NCBI GenBank assembly: GCA_021776915.1
Contig: JAIQZU010000055.1
Span: 1 to 32,378 of the forward strand
Length of the DNA stretch: 32,378 nucleotides
DNA from: Candidatus Scalindua sp.
Lineage (GTDB): Bacteria > Planctomycetota > Brocadiia > Brocadiales > Scalinduaceae
Reading direction: 5' to 3'
This document shows, piece by piece, positions 6,067-29,768 of this stretch (positions within the stretch are counted from its first letter, which is position 1; each line of letters opens with the position of its first letter). Below the pieces are notes generated by a model, which worked only from the letters and a program-made list of their open reading frames with translations, searched no databases and had not been told where the DNA came from. The position numbers and the translations under genes are program-made.

Positions 6067-6214
6067 ATATATTGAACCAAAGGTGTTGATTGAAAGATGG
6101 CGTAAAGAGTATAACACGTTTCGACCGCATAGTGCTCTTGGATACTTGCCACCTTCTCCAGAGACAGTTGAAGCGATACAGACAATTTCCGCTATGCTCC
6201 AACTGTCTATTTGA
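6062..6214 (+). pseudogene. C-terminal fragment of an IS3-family transposase (OrfB, integrase core)
   Basis: The frame starting at 6062 reads YEYIEPKVLIERWRKEYNTF, then RPHSALGYLPPSPETVEAIQ and ends at TGA 6212-6214. The NTFRPHSALGYLPP motif is the well-known end of the rve integrase domain in IS3-type transposases. Only about 50 codons survive; OrfA and the catalytic DDE region are absent. The sequence after the stop (GGTGGTACAAAGAACGGGGG, about 6235-6254) is probably the right terminal inverted repeat. No left end is visible, so this is a dead fragment. Confidence 0.85.
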
Positions 6215-6257
6215 ACACAAACTCTAACTTTAAAGGTGGTACAAAGAACGGGGGTAG

Positions 6258-6353: not shown

Positions 6354-6555
6354 GATGTTAACATCGGTTATGCTAAAATGAAAATACAGCCATAATAATT
6401 GGCTAAGGTTAGATTTTTTTACAAGCTAGCGACCCTCATACTACCAAAAACATGAGATAATTACCTTGGAAGAACGACCTACTGGCGAAGCCTATTTAAA
6501 GGTTGTCTATCTAATAGACTTTTTATTTATAAGCAATTAATAAATGAGGTATATC

Positions 6556-7032
6556 ATGAAAAAAATATTAGTTAATATTATATTTATGTTTGCCATAGCA
6601 ACAATTGCAGGATGTATCTATGGTCCTCCAGTGAAGGTAAGTTTATCCCATCTTGTTGATACGCCTTTTTTATACAGAAACAAGAAAGTGGAGTTCTCAG
6701 GACATGTAGTAAGAAATGAGTATTATGGTGACAAATACGTAACCTGGCAGTTGATTATGGAAGAAAATGGAAATCGTATATATTGTTACGAAGACGGTGA
6801 CAATCCGGATGTCATCACCAAATGTGTGAATCTGGCTGAAGAGGCGAAAGAGAACGGTGAAAAAATAATTGTCACGGGACGATTACGCGAAGGCGGATAC
6901 CGTGAGATAATCAGGGGTACTATTTTAGAGATAGACACCTTTGAGTATAAGAGCTATAAAATAGATACTGATTTTGGAGAATTTGGTATATGGTGTCCTG
7001 CTCACGGTACTTATGATTTTTGTAATTATTAA
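6556..7032 (+). CDS. Secreted lipoprotein with a probable OB-like domain
   Basis: 158 residues. I prefer ATG 6556 (MKKILVNIIFMFAIATIAGC) over ATG 6544, because GAGGT lies about seven bases before 6556 and the residues that follow form a textbook lipoprotein signal, with the lipobox TIAGC and lipidated Cys20. The mature part (VDTPFLYRNKKVEFSGHVVR ... WQLIMEENGNRIYCYEDG ... EKIIVTGRLREGGYREIIRG) has the alternating beta pattern and 'k.V..sG.V' / 'iivtGrlr' elements of OB-fold periplasmic proteins. It ends in CPAHGTYDFCNY, with two Cys that may form a disulphide or bind metal. It stands before the secreted CxxC protein. Function unknown. Confidence 0.75.
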   Translation: MKKILVNIIFMFAIATIAGCIYGPPVKVSLSHLVDTPFLYRNKKVEFSGHVVRNEYYGDKYVTWQLIMEENGNRIYCYEDGDNPDVITKCVNLAEEAKENGEKIIVTGRLREGGYREIIRGTILEIDTFEYKSYKIDTDFGEFGIWCPAHGTYDFCNY

Positions 7033-7093: not shown

Positions 7094-7597
7094 ATGTTGA
7101 ATAAGAAATTTACGGGAACAGTTGCTTTTGCAGTTGCATTTATTAGCTTGACGATGCTGGCGGGTAATTTCGCTTATGCTCAGAAAGAGCCAAAGGGACC
7201 AGATCTTCCTGAACTCCAAGCCTATAATCCGCCATTATGTCCCACTTGTAAAAGTAAGGTTGCCACCCGTACTAAAGGAAAGGTGACAGCGCCAGTGGCT
7301 ATGCATTGCCCGGATTGTAAAAAAGAAACAACGGAGTTAGAGGTTTCTCATTGTGATAAGTGCGAAAAAGAGTTCCTGACATGCATAGAGTGCCTGAAAG
7401 CTTCAAAAGCAGTAACAACAAAGTGCCCAAAATGTAAAAAGGTACTTGCAAGACGTATCAAGGGGAAAATAGAGGCGCCTGTAAAGTGGGAGATGAAGTG
7501 TCCTGATTGTAAGAAAAAGCCTCAGGAGTGGCTCATACATCATTGTGATGAATGCGATGCAGACTTCCTGGCATGCCCGCTTTGCAAAGAAAAATAA
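7094..7597 (+). CDS. Secreted protein with eight CxxC zinc-knuckle motifs in two tandem repeats
   Basis: 167 residues with a signal peptide (MLNKKFTGTVAFAVAFISLT...NFAYAQ, cleavage probably near residue 29). CxxC pairs begin at C49, C72, C87, C97 and again at C111, C136, C151, C161. The spacings are 23-15-10 and 25-15-10, so the protein is an internal duplication of a unit of about 62 residues. Each unit holds CP.CK, a basic KGK..APV stretch, CPDCKK, HCD.C....L.C..C. The pattern suits two structural metal sites per repeat (zinc-ribbon or rubredoxin-like). Export is unusual for such knuckles. It is probably a monocistronic gene, as a hairpin terminator follows. Confidence 0.8.
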   Translation: MLNKKFTGTVAFAVAFISLTMLAGNFAYAQKEPKGPDLPELQAYNPPLCPTCKSKVATRTKGKVTAPVAMHCPDCKKETTELEVSHCDKCEKEFLTCIECLKASKAVTTKCPKCKKVLARRIKGKIEAPVKWEMKCPDCKKKPQEWLIHHCDECDADFLACPLCKEK

Positions 7598-7615
7598 AGG
7601 ACGTTATGAAAAAAA

Positions 7616-7656
7616 TAAGGTTGGAATGGAACTCAAATTTCATTCCAACCCTTCTA
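7616..7656 (+). terminator. Intrinsic terminator after the CxxC protein gene
   Basis: A stem of GGTTGGAATG (7619-7628) pairs perfectly with CATTCCAACC (7641-7650) and extends inward by three more pairs to a six-base loop. A short T-rich run (CTTCTAATT) follows. It lies about 20 bases after the stop at 7597. Confidence 0.7.
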
Positions 7657-8158
7657 ATTAGTCTGAGGCTTGAGTTTTTAAACAAATCAAAGACACCGTA
7701 TCAACTAAAAATACCAACTCACTTATCCGCTTCTTTATTACATATCAAATATTCAATCATAGTAATACCATAAGCAAAATCATTCATTACTCCAGAGGAT
7801 TATGTTTATAGTTTCTTTTCCCACACCTCTCTGTTTGGTATCCAACTAATAATTATTCATACACCTCTCCTTCATCCTCTAAATAAAAATTTATATCGAG
7901 CATATGTTCCGTGCAATCAATACGTTAAGTAGTCTCTTTAAAATTTTGCATCTTTTGGTATCAGGGTTGCGATAAACATAATTAGAGAATATGAATTCAA
8001 TTTAATGTTACGAGCGCTGAAGACTCAGCGGTTTATTTCATCGAAGCTTTACATGACAAGTCAGAAAAGGAAGGAGGTTTATCGGTATTAAATAAGTTGG
8101 TTTTTGTAGATAGTATTTTACTTTGTTAATTAAAATTTTGTAAAAAGGAGGTAAGAAA
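7657..8158. other. Intergenic region before the HMA protein
   Basis: No convincing gene. Short frames are present but have no ribosome sites or protein-like composition. The right end carries GGAAGGAGG near 8068-8078 and AAAAAGGAGGTAAGAAA just before 8159; the latter is the ribosome site of the HMA gene. The leader is long and may hold regulation that I cannot read. Confidence 0.4.
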
Positions 8159-8491
8159 ATGTTTACTAGCAAATACTTAAGCCTTGGTTATATTTCTATA
8201 ATTGCCATAATCCTTGGACTGGTAATAAACACAACTTTTGTTAATACAGCACAAGCCGCAGATGATAGAAAGATCGAATTAAAGATCAAGGGGATGGGTT
8301 GCGAGATGTGCGCACATGCTATTGATAAAGTAATCTCGAGTTGTGTTGGTGTTAAGGGTTGTGATGTAAGTTACAAAGATGGTAAGGCAACTGTAGAGAT
8401 TGAGGTTAAGGCAAATATTGAGGAAATTAAAAAGGCCGTTGGAGACGCAGGCTTTTTTCTCGACGAATGGTCAATAGAGGAGCTACAGTAG
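8159..8491 (+). CDS. Secreted HMA-domain heavy-metal-binding protein (MerP/CopZ-like)
   Basis: 110 residues. An N-terminal signal peptide or anchor (hydrophobic about residues 9-30, then AQAA, cleavage after about A34) is followed by a complete HMA ferredoxin-like domain: LKIKGMGCEMCAHAIDKVI with the metal-binding Cys48 and Cys51, then CVGVKGCDVSYKDGKATVEI and ANIEEIKKAVGDAGF. Cytosolic CopZ has no signal; export makes this MerP-like. Its role would be to bind Cu+, Hg2+ or another soft metal outside the cytoplasm. Two additional Cys (C62 and C68) are present. It has a very strong AAGGAGG ribosome site and sits upstream of the secreted YHS proteins; no transporter gene is adjacent. Confidence 0.88.
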   Translation: MFTSKYLSLGYISIIAIILGLVINTTFVNTAQAADDRKIELKIKGMGCEMCAHAIDKVISSCVGVKGCDVSYKDGKATVEIEVKANIEEIKKAVGDAGFFLDEWSIEELQ

Positions 8492-8594
8492 CATCTTTGA
8501 TGCCTGAATGATTACCTTTTTCCAGTTCCAGAATTAAATCATCCATTATACGGGTGAGAATGGCAAAAGCCATTCAACAATATTTAAAGAAATT

Positions 8595-8638
8595 GTCTCC
8601 TTCCGTAAGTCGCACTATTACAGAAGGAGACTTTTGTA
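8595..8638 (+). terminator. Intrinsic terminator between the HMA gene and the first YHS gene
   Basis: GTCTCCTTC (8595-8603) pairs with GAAGGAGAC (8623-8631); beyond one mismatch the stem continues with GTAA/TTAC. TTTTGTATT follows. It separates the HMA gene from the YHS gene, so the two are transcribed apart or with attenuation. Confidence 0.8.
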
Positions 8639-8689
8639 TTGTAAGAATCTTATTTTAGTACTTTAAAGTTTTTTTTTGGAGGTAAATAA

Positions 8690-9064
8690 ATGAAGAAGGT
8701 TTTAACTCTTGGACTTGTTTTTGTTTTTTTACTTGGTTTCTCTATCACTTATGCAAAAAACTTAACATACGCAGCTGGAGGTGGAAAAGTAATAGACCGT
8801 GTCTGCACCATGCAGATTGATAAGGGAACGGCTGAGACACTAACGAAAGATGGATATACTTACTACTTTTGCTCTAACAATTGTAAAACTGCTTTTGGAA
8901 AGAATCCAGAGAAATATGCATGTATATGTCCACAACTTCATGAAGGATGTGACTGCGGTCATTGTGCAGGAAAGGGTGTACCGTGCATATGTGCAGAGGC
9001 CCATGCAGAATCCCATACAGGGGAACATGAGCACGAACATGAGTGTGGAGAACATCAGCATTGA
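8690..9064 (+). CDS. Secreted YHS-domain protein with Cys-rich module and His-rich tail (copy A)
   Basis: 124 residues. Signal peptide MKKVLTLGLVFVFLLGFSIT (cleavage near residue 22-30); YHS domain at about 34-78 with C39 (RVCTM), the GYTYYFCSNNCKTAFGKNPE core and C61/C65; a compact Cys module with C78, C80, C87, C89, C92, C99 and C101; then a tail rich in His (H105, H109, H113, H115, H117, H122, H124) ending in GEHQH. YHS domains are metal-binding modules found in copper ATPases and related proteins. The combination suggests extracytoplasmic binding or storage of a soft metal. Ribosome site TTGGAGGT. A close paralogue lies at 11666-12058, with all ten YHS and module Cys positions shared. The metal is not known from sequence. 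Confidence 0.82.
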   Translation: MKKVLTLGLVFVFLLGFSITYAKNLTYAAGGGKVIDRVCTMQIDKGTAETLTKDGYTYYFCSNNCKTAFGKNPEKYACICPQLHEGCDCGHCAGKGVPCICAEAHAESHTGEHEHEHECGEHQH

Positions 9065-9081
9065 TTGAACTCTGAATACAA

Positions 9082-9159
9082 TCCCCATCCTCCCATTTAG
9101 TAAAGAGAGGACTAGGGGGATTAATAAAGTGGGGTTGGATGCATTGAGGAGGATGGGGA
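9082..9159. repeat. Inverted-repeat element after the first YHS gene
   Basis: TCCCCATCCTCC (9082-9093) is the exact reverse complement of GGAGGATGGGGA (9148-9159), enclosing 54 bases that include a GGGGGATTAATAAAG stretch. The type resembles the G/C-rich dispersed elements near 18.7 kb. It could also end transcription of the YHS gene, but no T-run follows. Confidence 0.55.
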
Positions 9160-9235
9160 ATTAAATATGGTTTATGATTAATAAATATACTCATCAAAAG
9201 CAGAATAATAATGACAAAAAACAAAGGGGAAAAAC

Positions 9236-9640
9236 TTGGAAAACCGGGAAACAAAAACTACCACAAAAAAAAGGATTTGGAAAGATGGCAAGAAAGAATC
9301 TGTATCAGTGCAAGAAACCATAAGAAACGTTGGGATAAATAAGGAGTATCTTAAGGCCAAGAATGTATGCCGGGTGACGTTCAGGTTGCCAAAGGTAGCT
9401 GTTCATGCCGCTAAAAGTGTATGTATCGTTGGAGATTTTAACAATTGGAATATTCATGCAAATCCAATGAAAAAGCTGAAAAACGGAGATTACACTATTA
9501 AGCTTGATCTTGAGAAAGGAAGGGAATATCAATTTCGTTACCTCATTGATGAGTCAAAATGGGAAAATGAGTGGAATGCTGACAAATACGTAAGAAGCCA
9601 TTATGGAGATAGTGATAACTCAGTTGTTGTGACTTATTAA
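9236..9640 (+). CDS. Stand-alone CBM48 (glycogen-binding / isoamylase N-terminal) protein
   Basis: 134 residues. A basic N-terminal stretch (about 1-45) precedes a CBM48/early-set domain: VTFRLPKVAVHAAKSVCIVG, then DFNNWN, PMKKLKNGDYTIKLDLEKGR and EYQFRYLIDESKWENEWNAD. The GDFNNW and YQFRYLID motifs match the AMPK-beta/isoamylase N-terminal family that binds alpha-glucans. No catalytic domain follows. The start is TTG at 9236 with AAAGGGGA upstream; an ATG at 9211 is in another frame. A role in glycogen binding or in targeting a partner to glycogen is likely. It sits between secreted metal proteins but has no signal peptide, so it is probably cytosolic. Confidence 0.82.
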   Translation: MENRETKTTTKKRIWKDGKKESVSVQETIRNVGINKEYLKAKNVCRVTFRLPKVAVHAAKSVCIVGDFNNWNIHANPMKKLKNGDYTIKLDLEKGREYQFRYLIDESKWENEWNADKYVRSHYGDSDNSVVVTY

Positions 9641-9758
9641 TGGATTCCAATCATTTAAACATGTTGTGTCAAAGATAATGTTTTCTTTTTATCCATCAGT
9701 TTTTTTGGCAGGAAGCTATTTTACTTGCTAATGAGTTAGCAAAAAGGAGCTGCGAATT

Positions 9759-10127
9759 ATGACTACTATCCTTCTTGTAGAAGACAATAAAAACCAACGC
9801 TTGCTTTATGACCAGGAATTAAGTCGTGAAGGTTATGAAATCGAAATTGCAGATAATGGTAAAGATGCTTTAGGAAAAGTTCAAGAACTTGCAATAGACA
9901 TCATCATACTGGACATTAATTTACCAAAAATGGATGGTATTGAGGCAATGGGCAGGATTTTAAGTACAAACAAAAAAATCCCTATCATTATTAACACCGC
10001 CTATAGCAATTATAAGGATAATTTCATGTCATGGGCTGCAGATGCTTATCTCGTCAAATCTTCAGATTTGTCTGGATTAAAGAACACAATTAAGGAACTA
10101 CTTACAAAGAAGACCAAAGGAATATAA
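9759..10127 (+). CDS. Single-domain response regulator (receiver only)
   Basis: 122 residues with the full CheY-like receiver and no output domain. E8/D9 form the acidic pocket, D52 (IIILDINLPKMDG) is the phospho-acceptor, T80 (IIINTAYSN) the switch residue and K100 (AYLVKSSDL) the conserved lysine. AAAAGGAGCTG precedes the ATG. No histidine kinase is adjacent, so it is probably an orphan relay protein. It lies just after the CBM48 gene in the same direction with a 118-base gap, so co-transcription is possible but not shown. Confidence 0.93.
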   Translation: MTTILLVEDNKNQRLLYDQELSREGYEIEIADNGKDALGKVQELAIDIIILDINLPKMDGIEAMGRILSTNKKIPIIINTAYSNYKDNFMSWAADAYLVKSSDLSGLKNTIKELLTKKTKGI

Positions 10128-10170
10128 TTTAATATTTGGAAACCTTTAGAAATAGAAAGGAAATTACACA

Positions 10171-10503
10171 ATGAATAGCATTTTACGTACAGCATTAATA
10201 ATTATCGTTATTGTTTGTTTAAGTGGAATATATGTGAGTAGTGCCATATGGGCAGGTAGTGGTGGATGTTGCGGAGGAGGGAATAGTGACAAGGAATCCG
10301 GTGTGCATCCAGATCAAACAATGACAGAAGTGAAGAGTGAAAGAGCCGATGTTATAAAAGACCCGGTTTGTGGTATGGAGGTCAACGACCTAAAAAAGTC
10401 ACTCTCAGCAGTGTACAAAGGGAAGGATTACTACTTCTGCTCAGAATATTGCAAAAAAACCTTTGAAAATGATCCTGCTTCCCACACATCTACAGGTGCA
10501 TAA
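10171..10503 (+). CDS. Secreted YHS-domain protein (short form)
   Basis: 110 residues. An N-terminal hydrophobic segment (about 7-28, ending SSAIWAG) acts as signal peptide or anchor. It is followed by GGCCGGG, a polar linker and a YHS domain at about 63-105: DPVCGMEVNDLKKSLSAVYK, then GKDYYFCSEYCKKTFENDPA. The three canonical Cys (C67, C90, C94) are present, and the PVCGMEV motif is nearer the family consensus than in the two longer paralogues. The vicinal C33-C34 pair in a Gly-rich context could be a second metal site. The gene begins 44 bases after the response regulator stop, so they may share a transcript. Confidence 0.85.
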   Translation: MNSILRTALIIIVIVCLSGIYVSSAIWAGSGGCCGGGNSDKESGVHPDQTMTEVKSERADVIKDPVCGMEVNDLKKSLSAVYKGKDYYFCSEYCKKTFENDPASHTSTGA

Positions 10504-10677
10504 CAGCACGGTAAGGGTTAAGGAAACAAGCACTGATATAACACGGTATATACCCTTTAGCAGCAGGTGGATAATGCAGGGATTAGTAAAGAAAAAAATT
10601 AAAGAAGGTGTTATTTATGACTCGTCTTGTAAAATTACTTAATTAACAAAATCTGAATTAACTATAAGGAGGAACGA

Positions 10678-10800
10678 ATGAGAATCAGATCGATTGTATC
10701 AGCAGCGCTTATTGTTTTGTTCGTGGCTATGGTCGCTGTAGGATGTGCGGACACAGGTGGGGGACAATATCAGGACTCCCATTCCGGCCATTCTCACTAA
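10678..10800 (+). CDS. 40-residue His-tailed lipoprotein
   Basis: ATG 10678 has an excellent AAGGAGGAACG ribosome site. MRIRSIVSAALIVLFVAMVA leads to VGC, a lipobox with lipidated Cys23. The mature peptide is only about 18 residues: CADTGGGQYQDSHSGHSH, with three His at the end. Such a short anchored peptide could be a membrane-tethered metal ligand. The SHSGHSH ending resembles the His tail of the YHS protein at 11666-12058 (GGGHSH). The strong ribosome site and following terminator support a real gene. Family unknown. Confidence 0.72.
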   Translation: MRIRSIVSAALIVLFVAMVAVGCADTGGGQYQDSHSGHSH

Positions 10801-10834
10801 GAGGCTTTTGAGGAAAAGCCGGTTAAATTGGTAT

Positions 10835-10871
10835 ATACTCCTCCTTTCCCTCCCTGGAATTGGAGGAGTAT
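10835..10871. terminator. Hairpin after the 40-residue lipoprotein gene
   Basis: ATACTCCTCC (10835-10844) pairs exactly with GGAGGAGTAT (10862-10871) around a 17-base loop. A smaller hairpin, GGCTTTT-GAGG-AAAAGCC, lies at 10803-10820. Together they probably end transcription, although a T-run is missing. Confidence 0.6.
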
Positions 10872-11082
10872 TACCAGAATCAGTATAAAAAAATAATGGT
10901 GATTTTAGAAAGAACGGTACAATTATTATAGATTTTGCTATGCATTTAAAAAAAAGGTATTGAAAGCAAAAGACATCTCTTGGGATGTACTTCCACTCCA
11001 TTGCCGATATATAATTATATTAATGTAAACTTTTTATCGTAATGAAGAAAATCTGTAATGTTAATATATTTTTTATTTTCAA

Positions 11083-11499
11083 ATGAAAATCCAACTTGCC
11101 CACGTTCAACATCTCAGGGATATTTGCGAACTGTTAAAGGTTCTCGATACTGAAAAACGCAAATTTTCTGAGGAAAAACAAAGCCTGTTTTTCATTTCTC
11201 AACAATGGTGCTATATTGCTGTGGAAAGTGGGAATGTTGTAGGTGTTATGGTGCTGGAACCTACAGAGGGATCTTACAAGATATACACATTGGTTTCTAA
11301 ACAGAAAGGCACAGGAAAACTATTGGTAAATTGGGCAATTGATATATGCCGTAAAAATAATATTCCCAAGCTATGGTGTTGGAGCCTTGCTCGATACGCA
11401 GCTGAAGGATTTTATAAAAAAATGGGGTTTGCCGAATCATTTTTGTTGCATAAACAATGGGATGGTGAGGATTGTTATTTTCTTGGAAAATTAATATGA
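11083..11499 (+). CDS. GNAT-family N-acetyltransferase
   Basis: 138 residues. Predicted to transfer an acetyl group from acetyl-CoA to an amine; the substrate is unknown. The acetyl-CoA pyrophosphate loop is V71-SKQKGTGKLLV (Q/R-x-x-G-x-G/A type); the C-terminal YKKMGFAES at 111-119 is the usual motif B. The N-terminal half has the expected helix plus the beta hairpin (WCYIAVESGNVVGVMVLEPT). There is no clear ribosome site before the ATG. It lies alone between metal-protein genes and shows no sign of export. Confidence 0.85.
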   Translation: MKIQLAHVQHLRDICELLKVLDTEKRKFSEEKQSLFFISQQWCYIAVESGNVVGVMVLEPTEGSYKIYTLVSKQKGTGKLLVNWAIDICRKNNIPKLWCWSLARYAAEGFYKKMGFAESFLLHKQWDGEDCYFLGKLI

Positions 11500-11665
11500 A
11501 TGGATTCTGAAGTTTCCTCTCCAGGGTTCGTTTAATAAAAATAGCAACACAAACACAAGATGAAAGCTGTAAAATTCTAGAACGTTTTAAATACTTGTTT
11601 CTTATTGTCACGACAAAGCTTATAGTATATTTATAATTTATTAATTCTATTTTTGAGGCAAACAA

Positions 11666-12058
11666 ATGAAAAAAGTTTTAACACTTGGGCTTGTTTTTAT
11701 CTTTTCACTTGGTTTATCGATTACTTATACAAAGAGCCTTGCGCTCGCAAGTCGCGTCGGAATGGTAATAGACCGTGTCTGTACTAAGCAGATTGATAAG
11801 GACGGGGCTAAAACGTATAAGAAGGATGGGCATAAATATTACTTTTGCTCAAAAAAGTGTAAAAAGATCTTTAAGAAGGATCCGGAGAAATATGCATGTA
11901 GATGTTCAGCGTCTTCCGATGGGTGTCCTTGTTTTCACTGCACAGGTACTGGCGAGTTGTGTGATTGTGCAGAAATAACAGTATATACGGAATCTCACTC
12001 TGGAGGACACAAACAAGAGCATGAATATGAGGATAAGGGTGGAGGACACAGTCATTGA
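11666..12058 (+). CDS. Secreted YHS-domain protein with Cys-rich module and His-rich tail (copy B)
   Basis: 130 residues, paralogue of the protein at 8690-9064. The signal peptide MKKVLTLGLVFIFSLGLSIT is almost identical, and C39, C61, C65, C78, C80, C87, C89, C92, C99 and C101 occupy the same positions. The YHS core here (GHKYYFCSKKCKKIFKKDPE) is much more basic than in copy A. The tail has six His, ending GGGHSH, but lacks the tail Cys (C119) of copy A. The similarity extends past both gene ends: the leader resembles that of copy A, and both stops are followed by GAATACAATC. A segmental duplication is therefore likely. Role as for copy A, with likely divergence in metal or partner. Confidence 0.82.
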   Translation: MKKVLTLGLVFIFSLGLSITYTKSLALASRVGMVIDRVCTKQIDKDGAKTYKKDGHKYYFCSKKCKKIFKKDPEKYACRCSASSDGCPCFHCTGTGELCDCAEITVYTESHSGGHKQEHEYEDKGGGHSH

Positions 12059-12280: not shown

Positions 12281-12895
12281 ATGAAAGTAAATAAAACATT
12301 TGTTATATTTTTCTTAATTTCGGCAGTCATAACATTTTCAACAATACATGCTTATGCCGATGAAGGTTCTGGAACCGTAAAGGGAAAAGTAAGCGTAAAG
12401 GTTAAGAAATATCAAAAAGATTCCGTTGTTTATATTGAAAGAGTAGAAGGCAACTTCCCACCACCGGAAGAACATGCCAAAATGGATCAGGTAGAACTGG
12501 TATTTATCCCTCACGTTTTAGTTGTCCTTAAAGGTACAACCGTTGATTATCATAATAGCGATGATATAGCTCATAATGTATTTTCACCCGACGATGTTGC
12601 TGATAAGATGAATCTTGGCACGTGGTTAAGTGGTGAAGTAAGGCCTTACACGTTCAATAAACTTGGCGCTGCTGCTATGCTTTGCAATGTACACCCTGAG
12701 ATGGAGGCTTTTGTTGTAGTCCTTCAAAACCCGTATTTTGCAAAGACGGACGAGGACGGAAACTATACAATAGAAAATGTCCCTCCCGGTGAATATACGT
12801 TGAAAGTATGGAATAAGAAGTACAGGGGAAAAGATGAAAAGATTAAGACAAAAAAAGGTGATACCATAACTGTAGATTTCAAATTAAAGAGGTAA
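12281..12895 (+). CDS. Exported cupredoxin with C-terminal carboxypeptidase-regulatory-like domain
   Basis: 204 residues. Signal peptide about 1-26 (ending HAYA). A plastocyanin-like domain follows with a complete type 1 copper ligand set: H98 (DIAHNVFSP), C135, H138 and M141 (LCNVHPEM). Residues 152-204 (AKTDEDGNYTIENVPPGEYT, then LKVWNKKYRGK) form a CarboxypepD_reg/SpaA-like beta-sandwich, as in 'methylamine utilization'-type cupredoxins. It is likely a small electron carrier outside the membrane. It is the first gene of the respiratory cluster: ribosome site GAGGAGGAACG, and the next gene starts 8 bases after its stop. Partner assignment to the Rieske/cytochrome b complex is by context. 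Confidence 0.9.
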   Translation: MKVNKTFVIFFLISAVITFSTIHAYADEGSGTVKGKVSVKVKKYQKDSVVYIERVEGNFPPPEEHAKMDQVELVFIPHVLVVLKGTTVDYHNSDDIAHNVFSPDDVADKMNLGTWLSGEVRPYTFNKLGAAAMLCNVHPEMEAFVVVLQNPYFAKTDEDGNYTIENVPPGEYTLKVWNKKYRGKDEKIKTKKGDTITVDFKLKR

Positions 12896-21788: not shown

Positions 21789-22421
21789 ATGAAAACTCCG
21801 GAAAGTTCAAAGACAAATCTTGATGATCTCATTCAGAAGATCAAGTCTGAAGGGGTAGAGGAGGCAGAGAGAAAGTCTGAGGAGATTATAAACGCAGCCC
21901 GGCTTACTGCATCTAAAATCACAGATAAAGCAAGACAGGATGCTGAGGCAATTACCAGAGAGGCGGAGGAAGAGATAGGGAAAAAGGAGAGTGCCGGCAA
22001 AATGGCTCTTGAACAGGCGGCAAGGGACATAATCCTCAGTATACGGACGTCCCTTACAGAGATATTTGATTCTCTTATTAAAAAAGAATACAAGAATGTC
22101 TTGTCCGGTAAGACCCTGGAAACAGTGCTGATTAAACTTATAGAGGGATGGCAGAAGGATGAGATGGGTGAATTGAATATTGAATTGCTTTTAAGTGAAT
22201 CCGACAGGAATGTTCTACTTGAGGGGTTTTTGTCAAGGCTTAATAAGGAAATAAAGGTTGGTATAGAACTTAAAGTCCACCCGAATATAGAGGGAGGCTT
22301 TCGCATTGGTATGAAAGGTGGCCATGTCTACCATGATTTTACAGATGAAGGTATCGCAGATGTCCTTGCGGAATATTTAAATCCAAGGTTTTACAATTTT
22401 ATAGATTCTCTGAAAAAGTAA
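21789..22421 (+). CDS. atpE: V-type ATP synthase subunit E (peripheral stalk)
   Basis: 210 residues. The long N-terminal charged helix (about 10-90, rich in Ala/Glu/Lys: EEAERKSEEIINAARLTASK, then ITDKARQDAEAITREAEEEI) is the coiled-coil stalk; the C-terminal globular part (VHPNIEGGFRIGMKGGHVYH, then DFTDEGIADVLAEYLNP) has the family's 'GGf.i....g...Dft..' signature. It anchors the A3B3 head to the membrane part. First gene of the operon; no ribosome site is visible before the ATG. Its stop overlaps the start of the next gene by one base. Confidence 0.92.
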   Translation: MKTPESSKTNLDDLIQKIKSEGVEEAERKSEEIINAARLTASKITDKARQDAEAITREAEEEIGKKESAGKMALEQAARDIILSIRTSLTEIFDSLIKKEYKNVLSGKTLETVLIKLIEGWQKDEMGELNIELLLSESDRNVLLEGFLSRLNKEIKVGIELKVHPNIEGGFRIGMKGGHVYHDFTDEGIADVLAEYLNPRFYNFIDSLKK

Positions 22422-22963
22422 TGAAGGAACAATACTACTACGTTATCACATCACTGCCATACCTTTCCTTAAATGAAGAACTTCCTGTCCGGAAAGATGA
22501 CTTCCTTGCAAACTGCAAGAAATATTTAAAGAAAACCGACTTTGACATACTTGAATCCGTAAGTTTATTTGATGCCGGGGAAAATGAAGTGCCTTTTGAC
22601 GTCATAAGACGTTTTTTCAGGTGGGAGACAGGTTTAAGAAGCTCGCTCGTCAGATTAAGGGTGGAAAGTTTGGGTCTTGAACCTGATGAATTTGTAAGAG
22701 GTGAAATATTTGATCATTCTCAGGCGCTTCTTGCAGAGGAAGCCTTCAATGCGGATTCTCCTCTTATGGCGGAAGAAATTCTTAATAAAGCAAGATGGAG
22801 GTATCTGGATGAGCTTGAATTCGAACATTATTTTGATATAGAGAGGCTTGTTATCTTTTTTATCAAACTTCAGATACTTGAGAGAATATCTTCTTTTGAT
22901 GCTGTGAAAGGCCGGGAAATAATGAATGCCGTTGTCAGTCAGGGTGTACCGGATACTGATTAG
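22421..22963 (+). CDS. DUF2764 protein of the V-type ATPase operon
   Basis: 180 residues: MKEQYYYVITSLPYLSLNEE at the start, a helical RRFFRWETGLRSSLVRLRVE and a C-terminal RYLDELEFEHYFDIERLVIF. It is the family found between subunits E and A in V-type ATPase operons of Chlamydia, spirochaetes and Bacteroidetes. No subunit C or F gene is present in this operon, so it may replace the socket or central-stalk component C; that is inference. Translation is coupled to atpE by a one-base overlap. Confidence 0.85.
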   Translation: MKEQYYYVITSLPYLSLNEELPVRKDDFLANCKKYLKKTDFDILESVSLFDAGENEVPFDVIRRFFRWETGLRSSLVRLRVESLGLEPDEFVRGEIFDHSQALLAEEAFNADSPLMAEEILNKARWRYLDELEFEHYFDIERLVIFFIKLQILERISSFDAVKGREIMNAVVSQGVPDTD

Positions 22964-23411
22964 TTGTTAAGCCTTTTATTTTAACGCAGAGGCGCTGAGG
23001 ACGCAGAGGGTTATAATGAATGGTGTAAATGAAGAAGGGAGTTATTCATTTTTATGTTTCTCACGCAGCCGCAGAGATCGCCAGGAAAATATAAAAAAGA
23101 AATGAAAAGATAAAACTTTTTTCCATTTGCGTTTTGCGTGAGAACTCTTTTTCCCCCTTTGAGGTATTATGCGATGAGATTTTTCGGGTAGTTACAAATT
23201 ATGATAAATCCCTTTTGTATGGGTTTAAATTCTTAAACCCCTACTGACAGGTTTATTGTATATAACCCATGGCTTTCTGCCCGGCCATGCCGTTCGGACG
23301 GATCTGACGGTAGGCCTTTCTTTCGAGAGGAGTCCAATACTGGAATCCTCTCGAAAGAGAGGAACGTGTCCTTGCTTTCGCTCGAATTTTAATCTTAAAA
23401 TTTTATAAGTA
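22964..23411. other. 448-base repeat-filled gap inside the ATPase operon
   Basis: No gene. Contains the phrases CGCAGAGGCGCTGAGGACGC (about 22985-23004) and CACGCAGCCGCAGAGATCGC (about 23063), a GGGTTTAA-ATTC-TTAAACCC hairpin (23221-23240) and a strong hairpin at 23320-23357: CTTTCGAGAGGA / TCCTCTCGAAAG, plus an inner TCCA/TGGA. These are dispersed repeat types. They separate the E-DUF2764 pair from A-B and may reduce read-through or supply a separate promoter. Confidence 0.6.
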
Positions 23412-25283
23412 ATGAAAAATACAGGCAAGATTGTTGGCATAAATAAAAACATGATCACGGTTGAATTTGAAGGCAACGTGAAACAAAATGAGGTTGCCTA
23501 TGCTGTATTAGATGAAAGCCGTCTTAAAACAGAGGTCATCCGCATAAGGGGAAACAGGGCCGACCTGCAGGTTTTTGAAGATACCAGAGGACTTAAGATG
23601 GATGACGTTGTTGAATTTACGGGTGAATTATTGTCTGTAGAGCTGGGGCCCGGACTCCTGGGGCAGCTCTATGACGGTCTTCAGAACCCCCTTCATAAGC
23701 TGGCCGGGGAGTTGGGCTTTTTCCTCCAAAGGGGCAAGCACATCAACGCCCTGCCTGAAGATACGAAATGGGAGTTTACACCCTGCGTGAAGCCTGGCGA
23801 CAAACTGCAGGCTGCTGATGCCGTTGGAACTGTTAAAGAAGGTGGTTTCACGCATAAGATTATGGTCCCTTTCCATCTACCAGACAGGTATGAGGTAGTA
23901 GAAATTGCTGAATCCGGAGAATATTGTGTAAAAGATCAGGTTGCGCTCATTAAAGATAAGAGAGGTTCGTTTATACCACTAAGTATGATGTTTGAATGGC
24001 CTATACGTAAACCAGTTACATCATACAGGGAAAGATTAGATCCTGCGGAACCGCTTATAACAAGAATAAGGATAATAGATACACTGTTTCCTGTAGCGAA
24101 GGGTGGGACTTATTGCATCCCGGGCCCTTTTGGAGCAGGCAAGACTGTGTTACAACAGATAACAAGCCGTAATGCAAAGGTAGACATAGTGATTGTCGCT
24201 GCCTGTGGAGAAAGAGCAGGTGAGGTAGTTGAAACTATAAAAGAGTTTCCTGGAATTATTGACCCATTTACAGGAAGGCCTCTTATGGAGAGAACAATCA
24301 TTGTCTGCAATACAAGCTCCATGCCGGTTGCAGCCCGTGAGGCGTCTGTTTATACTGCCATTACAATGGCAGAGTATTACAGGCAGATGGGACTTGATGT
24401 GCTGATACTTGCTGATTCAACATCGAGATGGGCTCAGGCAATGAGGGAGAGGTCCAGCAGATTAGAAGAGATACCCGGAGAGGAGGCGTTCCCTGCCTAT
24501 CTGGAGTCTACCATAGCAGGCTTTTATGAAAGGTCAGGATTGGTAAGGTTGAGGGATGGCAGTACAGGCGCTATAACTATAGGTGGCACGGTAAGTCCTG
24601 CAGGAGGAAACTTTGAGGAACCGGTAACACAGGCGACACTTAAGGTTGTAGGCGCCTTCCATGGATTATCACGGGATCGGTCGGATGCCAGACATTATCC
24701 TGCTATTGACCCACTCGATAGCTGGTCAAAATATACCGGCATTATTGATAATAGATCTAGAAATCACACAGTAAGACTTCTTTCAAAGGCCCATGAGATT
24801 AGCCAGATGATGAAAGTTGTGGGAGAAGAGGGGATAACCCTGGATGACTATATATTATATCTTAAGGGTGAGTTCTTTGATAATGTGTATCTTCAACAGA
24901 ATGCTTTTGACCCAGTGGACATGGCTACTTCAGAAGAACGCCAGAAAAAGGTCTTTTCAATAATTAAGGAAATTATCGATGCTACTCTTGATCTAAACAA
25001 TAAAGATGATGCCAGAAACTTTTTTAACAGGAGCAGACAGATATTCCTGGATTACAACAGCTCAGAGTGGGATACAAATGATTTTCTTGAAAATGAAAGA
25101 CTCATTAGAGAATTGTTCCACAAATATAGAAAAGCAGGCACAGAGATAGAAACACACATCTTTCGGCAGGCTCTTGTGGAATCAGAAATGGATTCACACT
25201 TCAGCAGAGCAAAAACAGCTAAAACAAAAAAAGGCGAAAAACTAACAATGGTTAAGGAAGAGAATGAGGAAGATATACAATAA
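23412..25283 (+). CDS. atpA: V-type ATP synthase catalytic subunit A
   Basis: 623 residues. An N-terminal barrel ([20 protein letters not shown]) leads to the V-type-specific nonhomologous region (about 110-190), then the Walker A loop G238-PFGAGKTV-246, the GERAGEV motif and the Walker B stretch [20 protein letters not shown]. It hydrolyses or makes ATP at the A/B interface. The loop has GAGKT where most V-type A subunits have GSGKT; both fit the P-loop consensus. The length is a little above the usual 580-600 owing to a charged C-terminal tail. No ribosome site is visible. The last 20 bases overlap the subunit B gene. Confidence 0.97.
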
Positions 25284-26577
25284 GATTACACAGATATCCG
25301 GCAACGTAATAGTACTTTCTGCAACCGGTATAAAGTATGGCGAGTTGGCTGTTATTAAGTCTGAGCGTGGCGACTCTTTTGCAGAGGTTATTCGTATTGA
25401 TGGCAAGCTGGTTTATCTCCAGGTTTTTGCCGGCAGTGGCGGAATTTCTACTGGTGATGAAGTACGCTTCTTAGGAAAACAAATGGAGGTCTCTTTCTCT
25501 GATAATCTCCTGGGGAGGGTATTTGACGGGACAGGAAGGCCGCGTGACGGAGGACCGATATTGACAAAAAACCTTATCGAGATAGGCGGGCCTACAGTAA
25601 ACCCGGCGAAACGTTTAATTCCTTCAAATATGATACATACCGGCATTCCCATGATTGATCTTTTCAATTCACTTGTCGAATCTCAGAAAATATCTATCTT
25701 TACAACCTCCGGGGAGCCCTATAATGAACTTCTGGCGCGTGTAGCCCTTCAGGCAAAAGTAGATATAATCATCCTTGGAGGTATGGGGCTAAGGTACGAT
25801 GACTATCTTTTTCTGAAGAATACCCTTGAAAGTGAAGGTTCTCTGAGCCGTTCTATTCTATGTATTCATACAGCAGCAGATCCGGTTGTGGAATGTATTA
25901 TGGTACCTGACATCTCCCTTACTATTGCAGAGAATTTTGCTCTTCATGGTAAAAAGGTTCTTGTTCTACTTACAGATATGAAAAATTTTTGTGATGCGCT
26001 CAAGGAGATAGCCATCACAATGGAACAGGTTCCTTCAAATAGGGGATATCCGGGGGATTTGTACAGTCAACTTGCAGCCAGATATGAGAAGGCTGTCGAT
26101 TTCGAAGATGCCGGTTCTGTAACTATTCTTTCAATCACAACAATGCCGGGTAATGATGTAACCCACCCGGTACCTGACAACACGGGTTATATCACTGAGG
26201 GTCAGTATTATCTTAACAATGGCAGGATTGAACCCTTCGGATCTTTAAGCAGGTTGAAACAGTTTGTGAATAAGAAGACAAGAGATGATCATAGGCCCTT
26301 GATGGATGCCATGGTACAACTCTATGCATATTATCAGGAAGTATTAGAGAAAAAGGCGATGGGCTTCAGGATGACCCGGAGTGACAACAGGTTTCTTAAA
26401 TATGGAATTCTTTTTGAACGGAACTTGATGGATTTATCTGTGGAAATGTCGCTGGAGGAAGCGCTCGATACAGGATGGAGAATCCTTTCTGAATGTTTTG
26501 TTCCTGAAGAGACAGGAATCAGGACAGAACTGATAAAGAAGTTCTGGCCGAAAGAGAAACCACAGGTTAATGCATAA
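25264..26577 (+). CDS. atpB: V-type ATP synthase regulatory subunit B
   Basis: 437 residues, the non-catalytic nucleotide-binding partner of A. The N-terminal barrel is [20 protein letters not shown]. Where A has the P-loop, B has [20 protein letters not shown], without Walker A, as expected. Other family motifs are [20 protein letters not shown] and [18 protein letters not shown]. The start ATG lies inside the end of atpA, so the A and B proteins are translationally coupled, fitting their 1:1 ratio. It is followed by a 281-base gap holding an inverted-repeat element. Confidence 0.96.
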
Positions 26578-26679
26578 TTATTTAATATCAAGTGGAATTT
26601 TTACTGTTTAGCGAGAATATCAACCCCGCTTTCGCAGGGATTCCAAGAGTTAGTGCTGCAATCTTTCCGAAAGGAAGGA

Positions 26680-26822
26680 TACTCAAACCTAAATTGAGCG
26701 ATTTTGTAGCCGCAACCTTGAGGTTGCGAAACTTACGTGACCCATCAAACGTTGAGGAACGCAGGCTAAAGCCTTCGCGACAATGGCATTTAATATAAAA
26801 TCGCTCAATTTAGGTTTGAGTA
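26680..26822. mobile_element. MITE-like element with perfect 26-bp terminal inverted repeats
   Basis: The left arm (26680-26705, beginning TACTCAAACCTAAATTGAGC) is the exact reverse complement of the right arm (26797-26822). The 91-base core has the hairpins GCAACC-TTGA-GGTTGC and AGGCT-AA-AGCCT and no coding capacity. Size (143 bp), perfect ends and structured core suit a non-autonomous element. No clear target duplication is visible. It separates atpB from atpD. Confidence 0.7.
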
Positions 26823-26858
26823 ACATTGAGGCATTAAGTTAATGTTGACTAATAATCT

Positions 26859-27455
26859 ATGAAAAAGATCAAGCTTACAAAGACAGAGCTAAAGAAGCAG
26901 AAGGACAGTCTCAAGCGTTACAAGCGCTATCTGCCAATCCTTAACATAAAAAAGCAGCAACTTCAGAGAGAGATAGAAGGGGTAAGGATTGAACTTGAAA
27001 GGACAGCGATTGAATTTAACAAATTAAGTGAAGAAATAATACCATGGATTTGCCTGCTTGGTGAGGAAGTGGGCCTTTCTGATTTAATTATATTAAAAGA
27101 GATCGAAACCGGTGTTGAAAATATAGCAGGGGTGGATATTCCTGTCTTTGTTGAGGCGCACATAGATATCAAAAGATACGATTTGTTTATATATCCTTTA
27201 TGGGTTGATAAAGCGGTTGACATTATCAGCAAAATGATAACTTTACAGGCAGAAGAAACTGTGCTTACGGAGCGGCTGCGCCGTCTCGAACAAGAACTGA
27301 ACATCACATCTCAGAGGGTAAACCTTTTCGAAAAGGTTAAGATTCCGGAGGCGAAAGTGGCGATCAGACAGATTTCAATATTTCTTGGAGACCAGCAGGC
27401 AGCAGCCGTGGGATGGGCGAGGATAGCCAAAAATAAGATACAGGGAGCAATATAA
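26859..27455 (+). CDS. atpD: V-type ATP synthase subunit D (central rotor shaft)
   Basis: 198 residues. Long N- and C-terminal helices (KLTKTELKKQKDSLKRYKRY at the start; ERLRRLEQELNITSQRVNLF near 145-165) form the antiparallel coiled coil that turns inside A3B3. The N-terminal KxTKTELKKQ motif is characteristic. The stop TAA is followed directly by the subunit I ATG with no spacer. Confidence 0.92.
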   Translation: MKKIKLTKTELKKQKDSLKRYKRYLPILNIKKQQLQREIEGVRIELERTAIEFNKLSEEIIPWICLLGEEVGLSDLIILKEIETGVENIAGVDIPVFVEAHIDIKRYDLFIYPLWVDKAVDIISKMITLQAEETVLTERLRRLEQELNITSQRVNLFEKVKIPEAKVAIRQISIFLGDQQAAAVGWARIAKNKIQGAI

Positions 27456-29255
27456 ATGATAGTAAGGATGAATAAGGTTACAATAGTCATCAAATCATCC
27501 TGGATGGATGACGTTTTGAATACCCTTGGTAAAACAGGTGTTGTACATCTGCAGCCTGTTGCTCCACCTGAAAACAGTACTATTGCAGAGTTAAGAGAGA
27601 AGATACTGTTAATGGAGAAAGCTGTCTCAATTATTCCTGAAAAATCTGTTAAAGATTCTTTTTCTTCTTTTAATGAAGAGGATGGATTCGTGCTTGCAAA
27701 GCAACTTCTTGGCTTTACTGAAGAGGTAAAACGACTTGAAGAAGAGATAGGTATGCTTGAGATTGAATATGAGGCGCTAAAGGTATGGGGAAGGTTTGAT
27801 CCTGGAGAGATTAATAGATTGAAAGAGGCGGGCATTCTAATAAAGCTATTCAAGTGCCGCAAAAGAGAGTTAAGTAAAATTCCAAAAAAGCTTAGTACCA
27901 ATATCATCTCTGAAGATGGGCATACTCTCTACCTTGCGATTATCTCTAAGGAAAAGGACATAAGTATTCCACTGGAAGAGATAGACGTTCCAGTTTCCGG
28001 AATGGATAAAATAGAGAACATGATTAAAGAAAAGAGTGCACGTCTTCAACATAAACAGAACGAAATGTCAAATCTTTACGATAAATCCTTAGTGATCAAG
28101 AGTGCTTTAATGAAATCAAGGGAGATACTGACCTATGAAGAGGCTAAAGCAGGAATGGGAAGAGAAGATGAAATCTCTTACCTGAAGGGTTTCTGTCCGG
28201 AGCCTTTGACTGAAAGTCTCAGGGAAATGGCGGGAAAGAAAGGTTGGGCAATACTCATAGAGAACCCTTTACATGATGATCCTGTTCCCACACTCCTTAA
28301 GCATTCGAAGTGGACAAAGGTATTCCAGCCAGTTATGAATTTCATTGGCGTCACTCCCGGCTACAGAGAGTTTGATACAAACGGTATATTTTTAATCTTT
28401 TTCAGTATATTTTTTGCAATGATTATAGGTGATGGAGGCTATGGAGTCGTTTTCCTCATTGCTACTTACATTGCAGGCAGGTTTTATAAAAACATTTCGA
28501 GAGAAAAGATAATCCTCTTCTACCTGCTTTCTATCACAACAATTATATGGGGGACTATTACAGGTTCATGGTTCGGGGTAGAGAGTATAAGCCAGCTACC
28601 TGTATTAAAGGAACTGGTCATTCCTTCCTTATACAGTTATACTCAGGAAAGTGAATCTAACATAATACGCCTCTGCTTCTTAATCGGTGCGCTTCAGCTT
28701 TCTCTGGCTAGAATCTGGTTTGCTGCAAGATTGTACCCATCCTTAACTGCTCTTGCACAAACAGGGTGGGCAGCTTTGGTATGGGGTATATACTATATTG
28801 TGAGGTTTCTCCTGCTGAATGAGGAACTGAGTATTATCGCAGTTTTTTTGGTTGGTTATTGGGCTGTTATGTTAATACTATTCGGAGAACAGAGAGGGGA
28901 GGGTTTTGTTAAAGGTCTTTACAGAGGAATAGCAAATTTCTTAATTAGTGTCATAACTGGTATTGGATGTCTTTCGGATCTTATCTCGTATATCAGACTG
29001 TTTGCAATTGGCCTTGCTACAAGGGAAGTTGCTATAGCCTTTAATAATATGGCAGGGGATATTGGTTTCAGTGAGATAAAATCAATTGTAATAGCAATTT
29101 GTATACTTATCTTCGGCCATACAATAAACATATTACTGGGAGCCATGTCAGTTTTAGTCCATGGTATCAGGCTAAATCTTCTTGAATTTTCAAAACACCT
29201 GAATATTCAATGGTCCGGTATTGCCTATCGCCCATTTAAAATACAGAGATATTAA
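27456..29255 (+). CDS. atpI: V-type ATP synthase subunit I (membrane stator)
   Basis: 599 residues. The N-terminal cytosolic half (about 1-290) is helical and attaches to the peripheral stalks. The C-terminal half has several transmembrane helices, beginning with FLIFFSIFFAMIIGDGGYGV. The essential stator arginine is R514 in YIRLFAIGLA, which faces the rotor Glu. The size is at the short end of the family (about 600-660). The ATG directly follows the atpD stop. The GDGGYG motif is the usual one for the prokaryotic type. Confidence 0.95.
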   Translation: MIVRMNKVTIVIKSSWMDDVLNTLGKTGVVHLQPVAPPENSTIAELREKILLMEKAVSIIPEKSVKDSFSSFNEEDGFVLAKQLLGFTEEVKRLEEEIGMLEIEYEALKVWGRFDPGEINRLKEAGILIKLFKCRKRELSKIPKKLSTNIISEDGHTLYLAIISKEKDISIPLEEIDVPVSGMDKIENMIKEKSARLQHKQNEMSNLYDKSLVIKSALMKSREILTYEEAKAGMGREDEISYLKGFCPEPLTESLREMAGKKGWAILIENPLHDDPVPTLLKHSKWTKVFQPVMNFIGVTPGYREFDTNGIFLIFFSIFFAMIIGDGGYGVVFLIATYIAGRFYKNISREKIILFYLLSITTIIWGTITGSWFGVESISQLPVLKELVIPSLYSYTQESESNIIRLCFLIGALQLSLARIWFAARLYPSLTALAQTGWAALVWGIYYIVRFLLLNEELSIIAVFLVGYWAVMLILFGEQRGEGFVKGLYRGIANFLISVITGIGCLSDLISYIRLFAIGLATREVAIAFNNMAGDIGFSEIKSIVIAICILIFGHTINILLGAMSVLVHGIRLNLLEFSKHLNIQWSGIAYRPFKIQRY

Positions 29256-29324
29256 AAATACAGAATACTGCATAGAATATGGTTAACAATTGTCAACACA
29301 TAGAATAATCACAGGAGGAATAGG

Positions 29325-29768
29325 ATGAATATATTGGAGGGCCTGGGAAATCCTGGCTATGTACTTGCATTAATCTGTGCTGCTATTGGTTCTGCATTGG
29401 GAACAAGCGCTGCGGGAATGGCTGCCCTTGGGGCATGGAAGAAATGTTTTTTGCAGAATAAAAACGCCCCGTTTATCCTTGTTGCTTTTGTGGGGGCCCC
29501 GCTTTCACAAACAATCTACGGAATGATTCTCATGAATGCTATCAAAGGAGCGCCGGAAACAGTCAGCCCTCTGACAAAGTTTACGATAGGTTTTATGGGT
29601 GGTTTGGCAATGGGTTTAAGCGCATGGCTTCAGGGTAGGGCGGGAGCGATGGCTTGCGATGCCCTTACAGAATCGCAAAAAGGTTTTGGAAACTACATTA
29701 TGGTGCTGGGTATCATAGAGACGGTTGCCCTCTTTGTTATGGTCTTTCTGATGACAACACTGAGGTAA
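29325..29768 (+). CDS. atpK: V-type ATP synthase subunit K (rotor ring, double hairpin) with Na+-ligand residues
   Basis: 147 residues and four transmembrane helices arising from a duplicated c-type hairpin. The carboxylate is E132 in helix 4 (GIIETVALF). S61, Q62 and Y65 (PLSQTIYG) line up with T64, Q65 and Y68 of Enterococcus hirae NtpK (PGTQGLYG); Q103 (WLQGRAG) lines up with Q110; the 29-residue spacing from Q103 to E132 equals that of Q110 to E139. The first hairpin lacks a carboxylate, giving one ion site per four helices. AGGAGGAATAGG is a strong ribosome site, as expected for the multi-copy subunit. Last gene of the operon. Confidence 0.95.
   Translation: MNILEGLGNPGYVLALICAAIGSALGTSAAGMAALGAWKKCFLQNKNAPFILVAFVGAPLSQTIYGMILMNAIKGAPETVSPLTKFTIGFMGGLAMGLSAWLQGRAGAMACDALTESQKGFGNYIMVLGIIETVALFVMVFLMTTLR

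Follow-up and report, generated by a model that had tools for sequence, protein, structure and literature searches.

Genes of the cluster and their predicted products

The window analysed here is an entire contig of 32,378 nucleotides (JAIQZU010000055.1, designated C51) from a 3.79-Mb, 89-contig genome of Candidatus Scalindua sp., and between 6.5 and 12.1 kb it carries a cluster of genes for small, putatively exported proteins with candidate metal-binding motifs. The genome contains a match to the hydrazine synthase alpha subunit; in all, 40 of the 62 genomes of the order have one. This match, together with a relative in the same family, Candidatus (Ca.) Scalindua sediminis, identifies the organism as a marine-type anammox bacterium belonging to the Scalindua group. 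The cluster, with all genes on the forward strand, comprises an exported protein of 167 aa with eight CxxC motifs (7094..7597), an exported HMA-domain protein with the motif GMGCEMC (8159..8491; PF00403, E = 8e-11), three exported YHS proteins (PF04945) and a His-tailed lipoprotein of 40 aa (10678..10800). YHS-A (8690..9064; E = 2.6e-12) and its paralogue YHS-B (11666..12058; E = 5.3e-12), which are 61% identical, share a layout in which the YHS domain is followed by a Cys-rich stretch of the form CxC..CxCxHC..CxC and a His-rich tail. YHS-C (10171..10503; E = 2.3e-14) is likewise exported and has a YHS domain, but lacks the Cys-rich tail. These six proteins had been named in an earlier interpretation of the DNA letters (the sequence-only reading) and were confirmed by open reading frames, Pfam matches and the count of CxxC motifs.

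A small lipoprotein of no recognised family (6544..7032, starting at 6544 or 6556), with a lipobox identified by eye and no Pfam match, was counted in the set because it precedes the CxxC or the HMA gene in three related genomes (G045, G048 and G049). When compared to their orthologs, the cluster genes have ratios of nonsynonymous to synonymous changes (pN/pS) of 0.24-0.46, and are thus under purifying selection. The ratio is 0.26-0.27 for the CxxC gene, 0.34 for the small lipoprotein and, over only 40 codons, 0.32 for the His-tailed lipoprotein. Signal peptides were assessed by eye and with a simple filter, not with SignalP. This filter retained 13 small candidate exported reading frames in the whole window, of which seven lie at 6.5-12.1 kb and include all YHS, HMA and CxxC proteins, and an extracytoplasmic location of these products is predicted. 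Three further genes are interleaved, encoding a CBM48-domain protein that is not evidently exported (9236..9640; PF02922, E = 1.1e-7), a receiver-only response regulator (9759..10127; PF00072, E = 2.2e-24) and a GNAT acetyltransferase (11083..11499; PF13508, E = 1.6e-7). Since intergenic gaps reach about 560 bp, the set is not one tight operon. The sequence-only reading had also assigned several genes terminators of their own, but the five terminator-like sites of the region do not exceed the number in shuffled sequences (3.5 ± 1.8).

The Cys residues of the exactly eight CxxC motifs are invariant or nearly so in 23 aligned relatives, and members of the family carry one to several Cys-rich repeat units. 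No Pfam family matched the CxxC protein above its cut-off, the best being a zinc ribbon with 16.1 bits against the required 25 (PF07191, PF12773 and others were tested). Comparison with PDB sequences returned only generic zinc-ribbon-like chains (best E 0.014). A structure model of this protein was too weak to decide on a fold, with a mean predicted local distance difference test score (pLDDT) of 61.6 and a predicted template modelling score of 0.34, and Foldseek found nothing at E ≤ 0.001. Of 392 genomes of the phylum, 27 encode the family, and each of these belongs to the anammox order, which accounts for about 36 of the 392. A search of a species-genome collection with a single peptide pattern gave 28 CxxC loci, all assigned to Planctomycetes, Planctomycetota or Planctomycetia or to named anammox groups. 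As far as searched, the family therefore appears confined to the anammox order. A plasmid origin was considered and dropped after tblastn returned no match in 72,556 plasmid records. Among the 12 other genomes of the genus, the gene was found in G048, G049, G050 and G058, and in G049 it changes frame.

All three YHS proteins pass the gathering score of PF04945, with 46.9, 53.5 and 46.0 bits against 30.3. D36, C39, C61 and C65 of the domain are invariant in 16 of 16 aligned sequences. An Asp and three Cys are the proposed metal ligands of the YHS domain according to an excerpt of a study in which the domain confers a Cu2+ response on a mycobacterial cyclase (PMC4626032). In the structure model the YHS domain is folded (pLDDT about 80) and the tail is disordered; Foldseek placed the YHS domain of methane monooxygenase hydroxylase and the ribosomal protein L24e first, with no match at E ≤ 0.001. 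The CxC-rich stretch and His-rich tail of YHS-A and YHS-B are likewise found in G002 and in one anammox family, here called f3. Close relatives of YHS-A (E ≤ 1e-14) occur in G047, G049, G051 and G053 among the 12 genomes of the genus, and YHS-C has orthologs of 74% identity in G045 and G049.

A full-length ortholog of the HMA protein was found only in G049 (62% identity), with a remnant in G048. The protein scores below all NCBIfam equivalog cut-offs for CopZ and MerP (44.6 bits against 85 for CopZ, 46.3 against 180 for MerTP). Short His-tailed lipoproteins with the layout of the 10678 protein stand beside YHS genes in G049, G025 and G027. The interleaved genes recur in similar places, with CBM48 3′ of YHS in G045, the response regulator adjoining YHS in G049 and several Brocadiaceae, and GNAT beside YHS in G060. 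A supposed OB-like-domain link between the 6544 lipoprotein and an HMA protein of Ca. Scalindua sediminis was abandoned, as BLAST showed no similarity. In Brocadiaceae, a reading frame beside CxxC genes (L083:6331-8166, reverse strand) encodes a glucan-phosphorylase-like protein with a YHS domain at its N-terminal end, and L105 and L114 have similar reading frames. Together with the CBM48 protein of the window, this fusion raises the possibility of a link between metal sensing and glycogen.

Gene neighbourhoods in related genomes

Four proteins of the cluster were searched against the 62 genomes of the order, and stretches of up to 20 kb were mapped around the matches. Genes of relatives were predicted with a simple caller and labelled by BLAST, and the labels of representatives were confirmed by Pfam. 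In family f3 the CxxC gene is part of a copper-efflux locus with the order CsoR-CopA-CxxC-TolC-CusB-CusA. A YHS gene is present in the f3 loci L087 and L099, and L190 has the row YHS-CusA-CusB-TolC. Moreover, the CusB proteins of this family start with HMBD domains and carry two or three YHS domains at the C-terminal end.

Within the Scalinduaceae, G045 has the order CusB-CusA-kinase-NtrC-TolC-HD-lipoprotein-CxxC-..-YHS-CBM48, and G048 follows it from CusA to CxxC. The most complete arrangement is that of G049, NtrC-TolC-..-HD-..-lipoprotein-HMA-CxxC-YHS-methyltransferase-response regulator-YHS-mini-lipoprotein-..-YHS, where CusA lies about 10 kb upstream of CxxC. Elsewhere YHS directly follows CusA, as in CusB-CusA-YHS (G047), CusB-CusA-YHS-CxxC (G059) and CusA-YHS-YHS (G051). 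As the full set occurs only in G049, and there with the frame-changed CxxC gene, it is patchy. The genes of the set thus scatter in relatives, which the sequence-only reading would have taken as speaking against a joint function, but they scatter around copper pumps.

At least 18 of the 56 CxxC places have one of the listed CusA-like places at a distance of up to 15 kb, when 0.83 would be expected (Poisson-binomial P about 8e-20, calculated from genome sizes and not corrected for shared ancestry); weaker resistance-nodulation-division places are outside both the observed and the expected counts. CxxC places within 2 kb of each other were merged, which gave 56 places for this distance test and 55 for the locus counts, from which G032:C1:3104375 (E 4.7e-4) was left out. 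In the locus counts, made without a matched background and with several loci shortened by contig ends, a pump-related gene (CusA, CusB, TolC, CopA or a P2-type ATPase) was found within 12 kb in 43 of the 55 loci and a YHS gene within 12 kb in 24.

In the genome of the window, the pump genes are located elsewhere. CusB-CusA-kinase-NtrC are encoded on contig C5 and end 75 bp from the contig end, at the point where relatives continue with TolC. CopA and TolC are on C14, and this TolC shares 80% identity with its counterpart in the G049 locus. The 6.5 kb upstream of the set on C51 contain no pump genes. The window would thus carry an accessory module that is physically separate from its pump in the genome, unless the separation comes from a break in the assembly. 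The sequence-only reading had seen neither a transporter nor a known metal regulator next to the genes. For the window contig both observations stand, apart from the receiver-only response regulator at 9759; the first fails for relatives, where orthologs of the set adjoin CusBA, TolC and kinase/NtrC genes, and for C5 and C14.

Several other observations were made in these stretches. In Ca. Scalindua sediminis, RicR/CsoR-like, MerTP-like, GDCCVxC and HMA genes are located beside CusBA-YHS-CxxC (L072:5840-7908). G002, of another anammox family, has a row of cupredoxin, ferredoxin-like, YHS with CxC and His tail, and TolC genes (L102:8282-12119). Sites of the form TGGCAY-N5-TTG(T/A), resembling sigma-54 promoters, were found 5′ of CxxC in L072 and L076 and 5′ of YHS-B in L068 and L073; they would suit the NtrC gene of the Cus locus, and none precedes the genes of the window. 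A link of the window genes to the NtrC of relatives through sigma-54 promoters was rejected: the search gave 24 matches where 20.3 were expected, and no site was consistently present upstream. Downstream of the set, the window encodes a V-type ATPase operon (21789-29768), which also follows the CxxC region in L075, L076, L077, L081 and L114. A RelB/YafQ-type toxin-antitoxin pair is located at 2043-2578.

Metal signatures and competing explanations

The Cys-His-Cys set of CsoR, the motifs of P1B-1 CopA pumps and the Met triad of CusA are signatures of Cu(I)/Ag(I). We found them conserved in the proteins examined. The CsoR of f3 keeps Cys-25-His-4-Cys in seven of seven proteins (counted without the L072 protein), CopA keeps N(x6)YN(x4)P and MxxSS(x5)N in six of six (counted without the P1B pumps of L087 and L177), and all three Met are present in 16 of 16 aligned CusA of the order. 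Both the CopA and the CusA counts include the genome of the window. That relatives encode CxxC and YHS proteins in Cu(I)-efflux loci with these residues intact agrees with the view of the sequence-only reading that the cluster is an extracytoplasmic soft-metal set, perhaps for copper. We consider it probable that the cluster is an extracytoplasmic accessory module of anammox Cu(I)/Ag(I) efflux, set apart here from the pump genes, with metal binding and the identity of the metal predicted from sequence and gene context. The module may also be co-regulated.

According to this model, the YHS proteins would bind Cu(I) by the Asp-Cys3 site of the YHS/TRASH fold, and YHS-A and YHS-B would additionally use the CxC-rich stretch and the His-rich tail. 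They would then pass Cu(I) to CusB/CusA in a CusF-like manner, while the exported HMA protein would shuttle Cu(I). The eight-CxxC protein and the His-tailed lipoprotein may buffer the excess. The strongest hint that YHS gives Cu(I) to the pump is the YHS-CusB fusion in f3, where other bacteria fuse CusF.

Several findings weigh against this interpretation. CusA, CusB and TolC-type genes are absent from the window contig, and a search for a promoter common to the cluster genes, of the sigma-54 or another type, found none. Within the genus, CxxC and YHS-A have patchy distributions that differ from each other, and some f3 YHS genes are in places without pumps. CusA, CusB or CopA lies within 12 kb in only 25 of the 55 CxxC loci. 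A P2-type ATPase with motifs like those of Ca2+ pumps (PEGLP, N..TD) is near 26 of the 55, mostly in Brocadiaceae (for instance L078:10231-13011 and L082:11518-15021), and a multihaem cytochrome near 16. The P2-type ATPase neighbours are not explained by copper alone; they often occur with a radical SAM protein or a multihaem cytochrome.

These neighbours in Brocadiaceae fit a defence against soft metals in general or against ones other than copper (Zn, Cd, Hg or Ag), in which CxxC would be a secreted zinc-ribbon-type buffer working with different pumps in each lineage. The weak zinc-ribbon similarity of CxxC in Pfam and PDB comparisons and the MerTP-like, RicR/CsoR-like and GDCCVxC genes beside the set in Ca. 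Scalindua sediminis point in the same direction. However, the regulator and the P1B pump of f3, where present, bear copper signatures, and all examined CusA adjoining the set have the Cu/Ag Met triad, so that we regard this broader defence as rather unlikely. The location of the pump genes elsewhere in the genome could also mean that the cluster consists of decaying leftovers of a resistance island that was broken by mobile elements and has lost its joint function. A C-terminal remnant of an IS3-type (insertion sequence) transposase, recognised by eye, is located directly upstream of the set (6083-6227), and the frame change of CxxC in G049 and the HMA remnant in G048 would be in line with such decay. 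Yet all genes of the window are open and under purifying selection, which leaves this scenario little credit.

The sequence-only reading had favoured service to the adjacent cupredoxin and cytochrome operon, and indeed YHS-B lies directly upstream of a cupredoxin-like gene at 12281 (PF00127, E = 9.4e-5), whose product together with the bc1 complex could receive copper from the set. In G002, the gene of the YHS protein with CxC and His tail is the second one after a cupredoxin gene, and cytochromes c are encoded nearby, but the YHS gene is followed by a TolC-like gene. No other stretch examined has YHS and cupredoxin adjacent. In a comparison of the window's cupredoxin and bc1 proteins with stretches L001-L181 and the rows of alignments (233 records), the cupredoxin was met only at its own locus and in G002 (L102, of which L017 is a shorter duplicate), and the neighbourhood is thus not conserved. 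bc1 is a core complex of anammox, and accessory proteins of such a respiratory complex would hardly be expected to occur as patchily as CxxC and YHS do even within the genus. Copper delivery to this operon is accordingly improbable in our view, and no support was found for the sulphur-metal chemistry that had been offered as another option. A role of the cluster in Cu(I)/Ag(I) efflux is the explanation we retain.

Relation to known copper systems

Most likely, the cluster belongs to a copper-efflux system of a familiar type with novel components. This system resembles CusCFBA in that, in relatives, small exported metal-binding proteins are encoded with CusA, CusB and TolC, the CusA Met triad is kept, and the chaperone domain, YHS here and CusF elsewhere, is either free or fused to CusB. 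CusB-CusF fusions are described for 22 organisms in an excerpt of PMC3548706. It differs from CusCFBA by having YHS instead of CusF as chaperone domain, an additional secreted multi-CxxC protein, and a kinase with an NtrC-type (sigma-54) regulator in place of CusRS; in this genome the accessory genes are moreover apart from the pump. CusF (PF11604) gave no Pfam match in the representatives scanned, and no order-wide search was made.

The YHS proteins match the YHS/TRASH domain (PF04945) of the copper-responsive adenylyl cyclase of Mycobacterium phlei and have its D/C/C/C ligand set. The YHS of that cyclase is called cytosolic in the excerpt (PMC4626032), whereas the anammox YHS proteins are predicted to be exported and can carry CxC-rich and His-rich tails. 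With CopZ and MerP the HMA protein shares the domain and the GMxCxxC motif; unlike CopZ it is putatively exported, it stays below the equivalog cut-offs, and no MerT or MerA gene adjoins it in the window. Periplasmic metal sponges of the SilE/PcoE type and bacterial metallothioneins offer a comparison for Cys/His-rich buffers. The likeness, that of Cys/His-rich exported buffers beside efflux pumps, is one of layout and not of compared sequences, and the repeats of the CxxC protein are zinc-ribbon-like CxxC units rather than Met/His runs.

We tentatively suggest that anammox bacteria may replace CusF by a class of extracytoplasmic Cu(I) chaperones of their own. These would be YHS domains, free, encoded next to CusA or fused to CusB, some with a metallothionein-like CxC/CxCxHC stretch and His tail, and they would be joined by an order-specific secreted multi-CxxC copper buffer. 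No paper joining the YHS domain and anammox was found in the open-licence literature. From our analysis, a family so far found only in the anammox order gains a testable role, as do the exported YHS proteins, which carry a widely annotated domain with little biochemistry. If true, this would mean that Cus pumps can be fed without CusF. Since anammox bacteria drive marine nitrogen loss and serve in wastewater treatment, in which copper is known to be a stress, their copper defence has practical interest.

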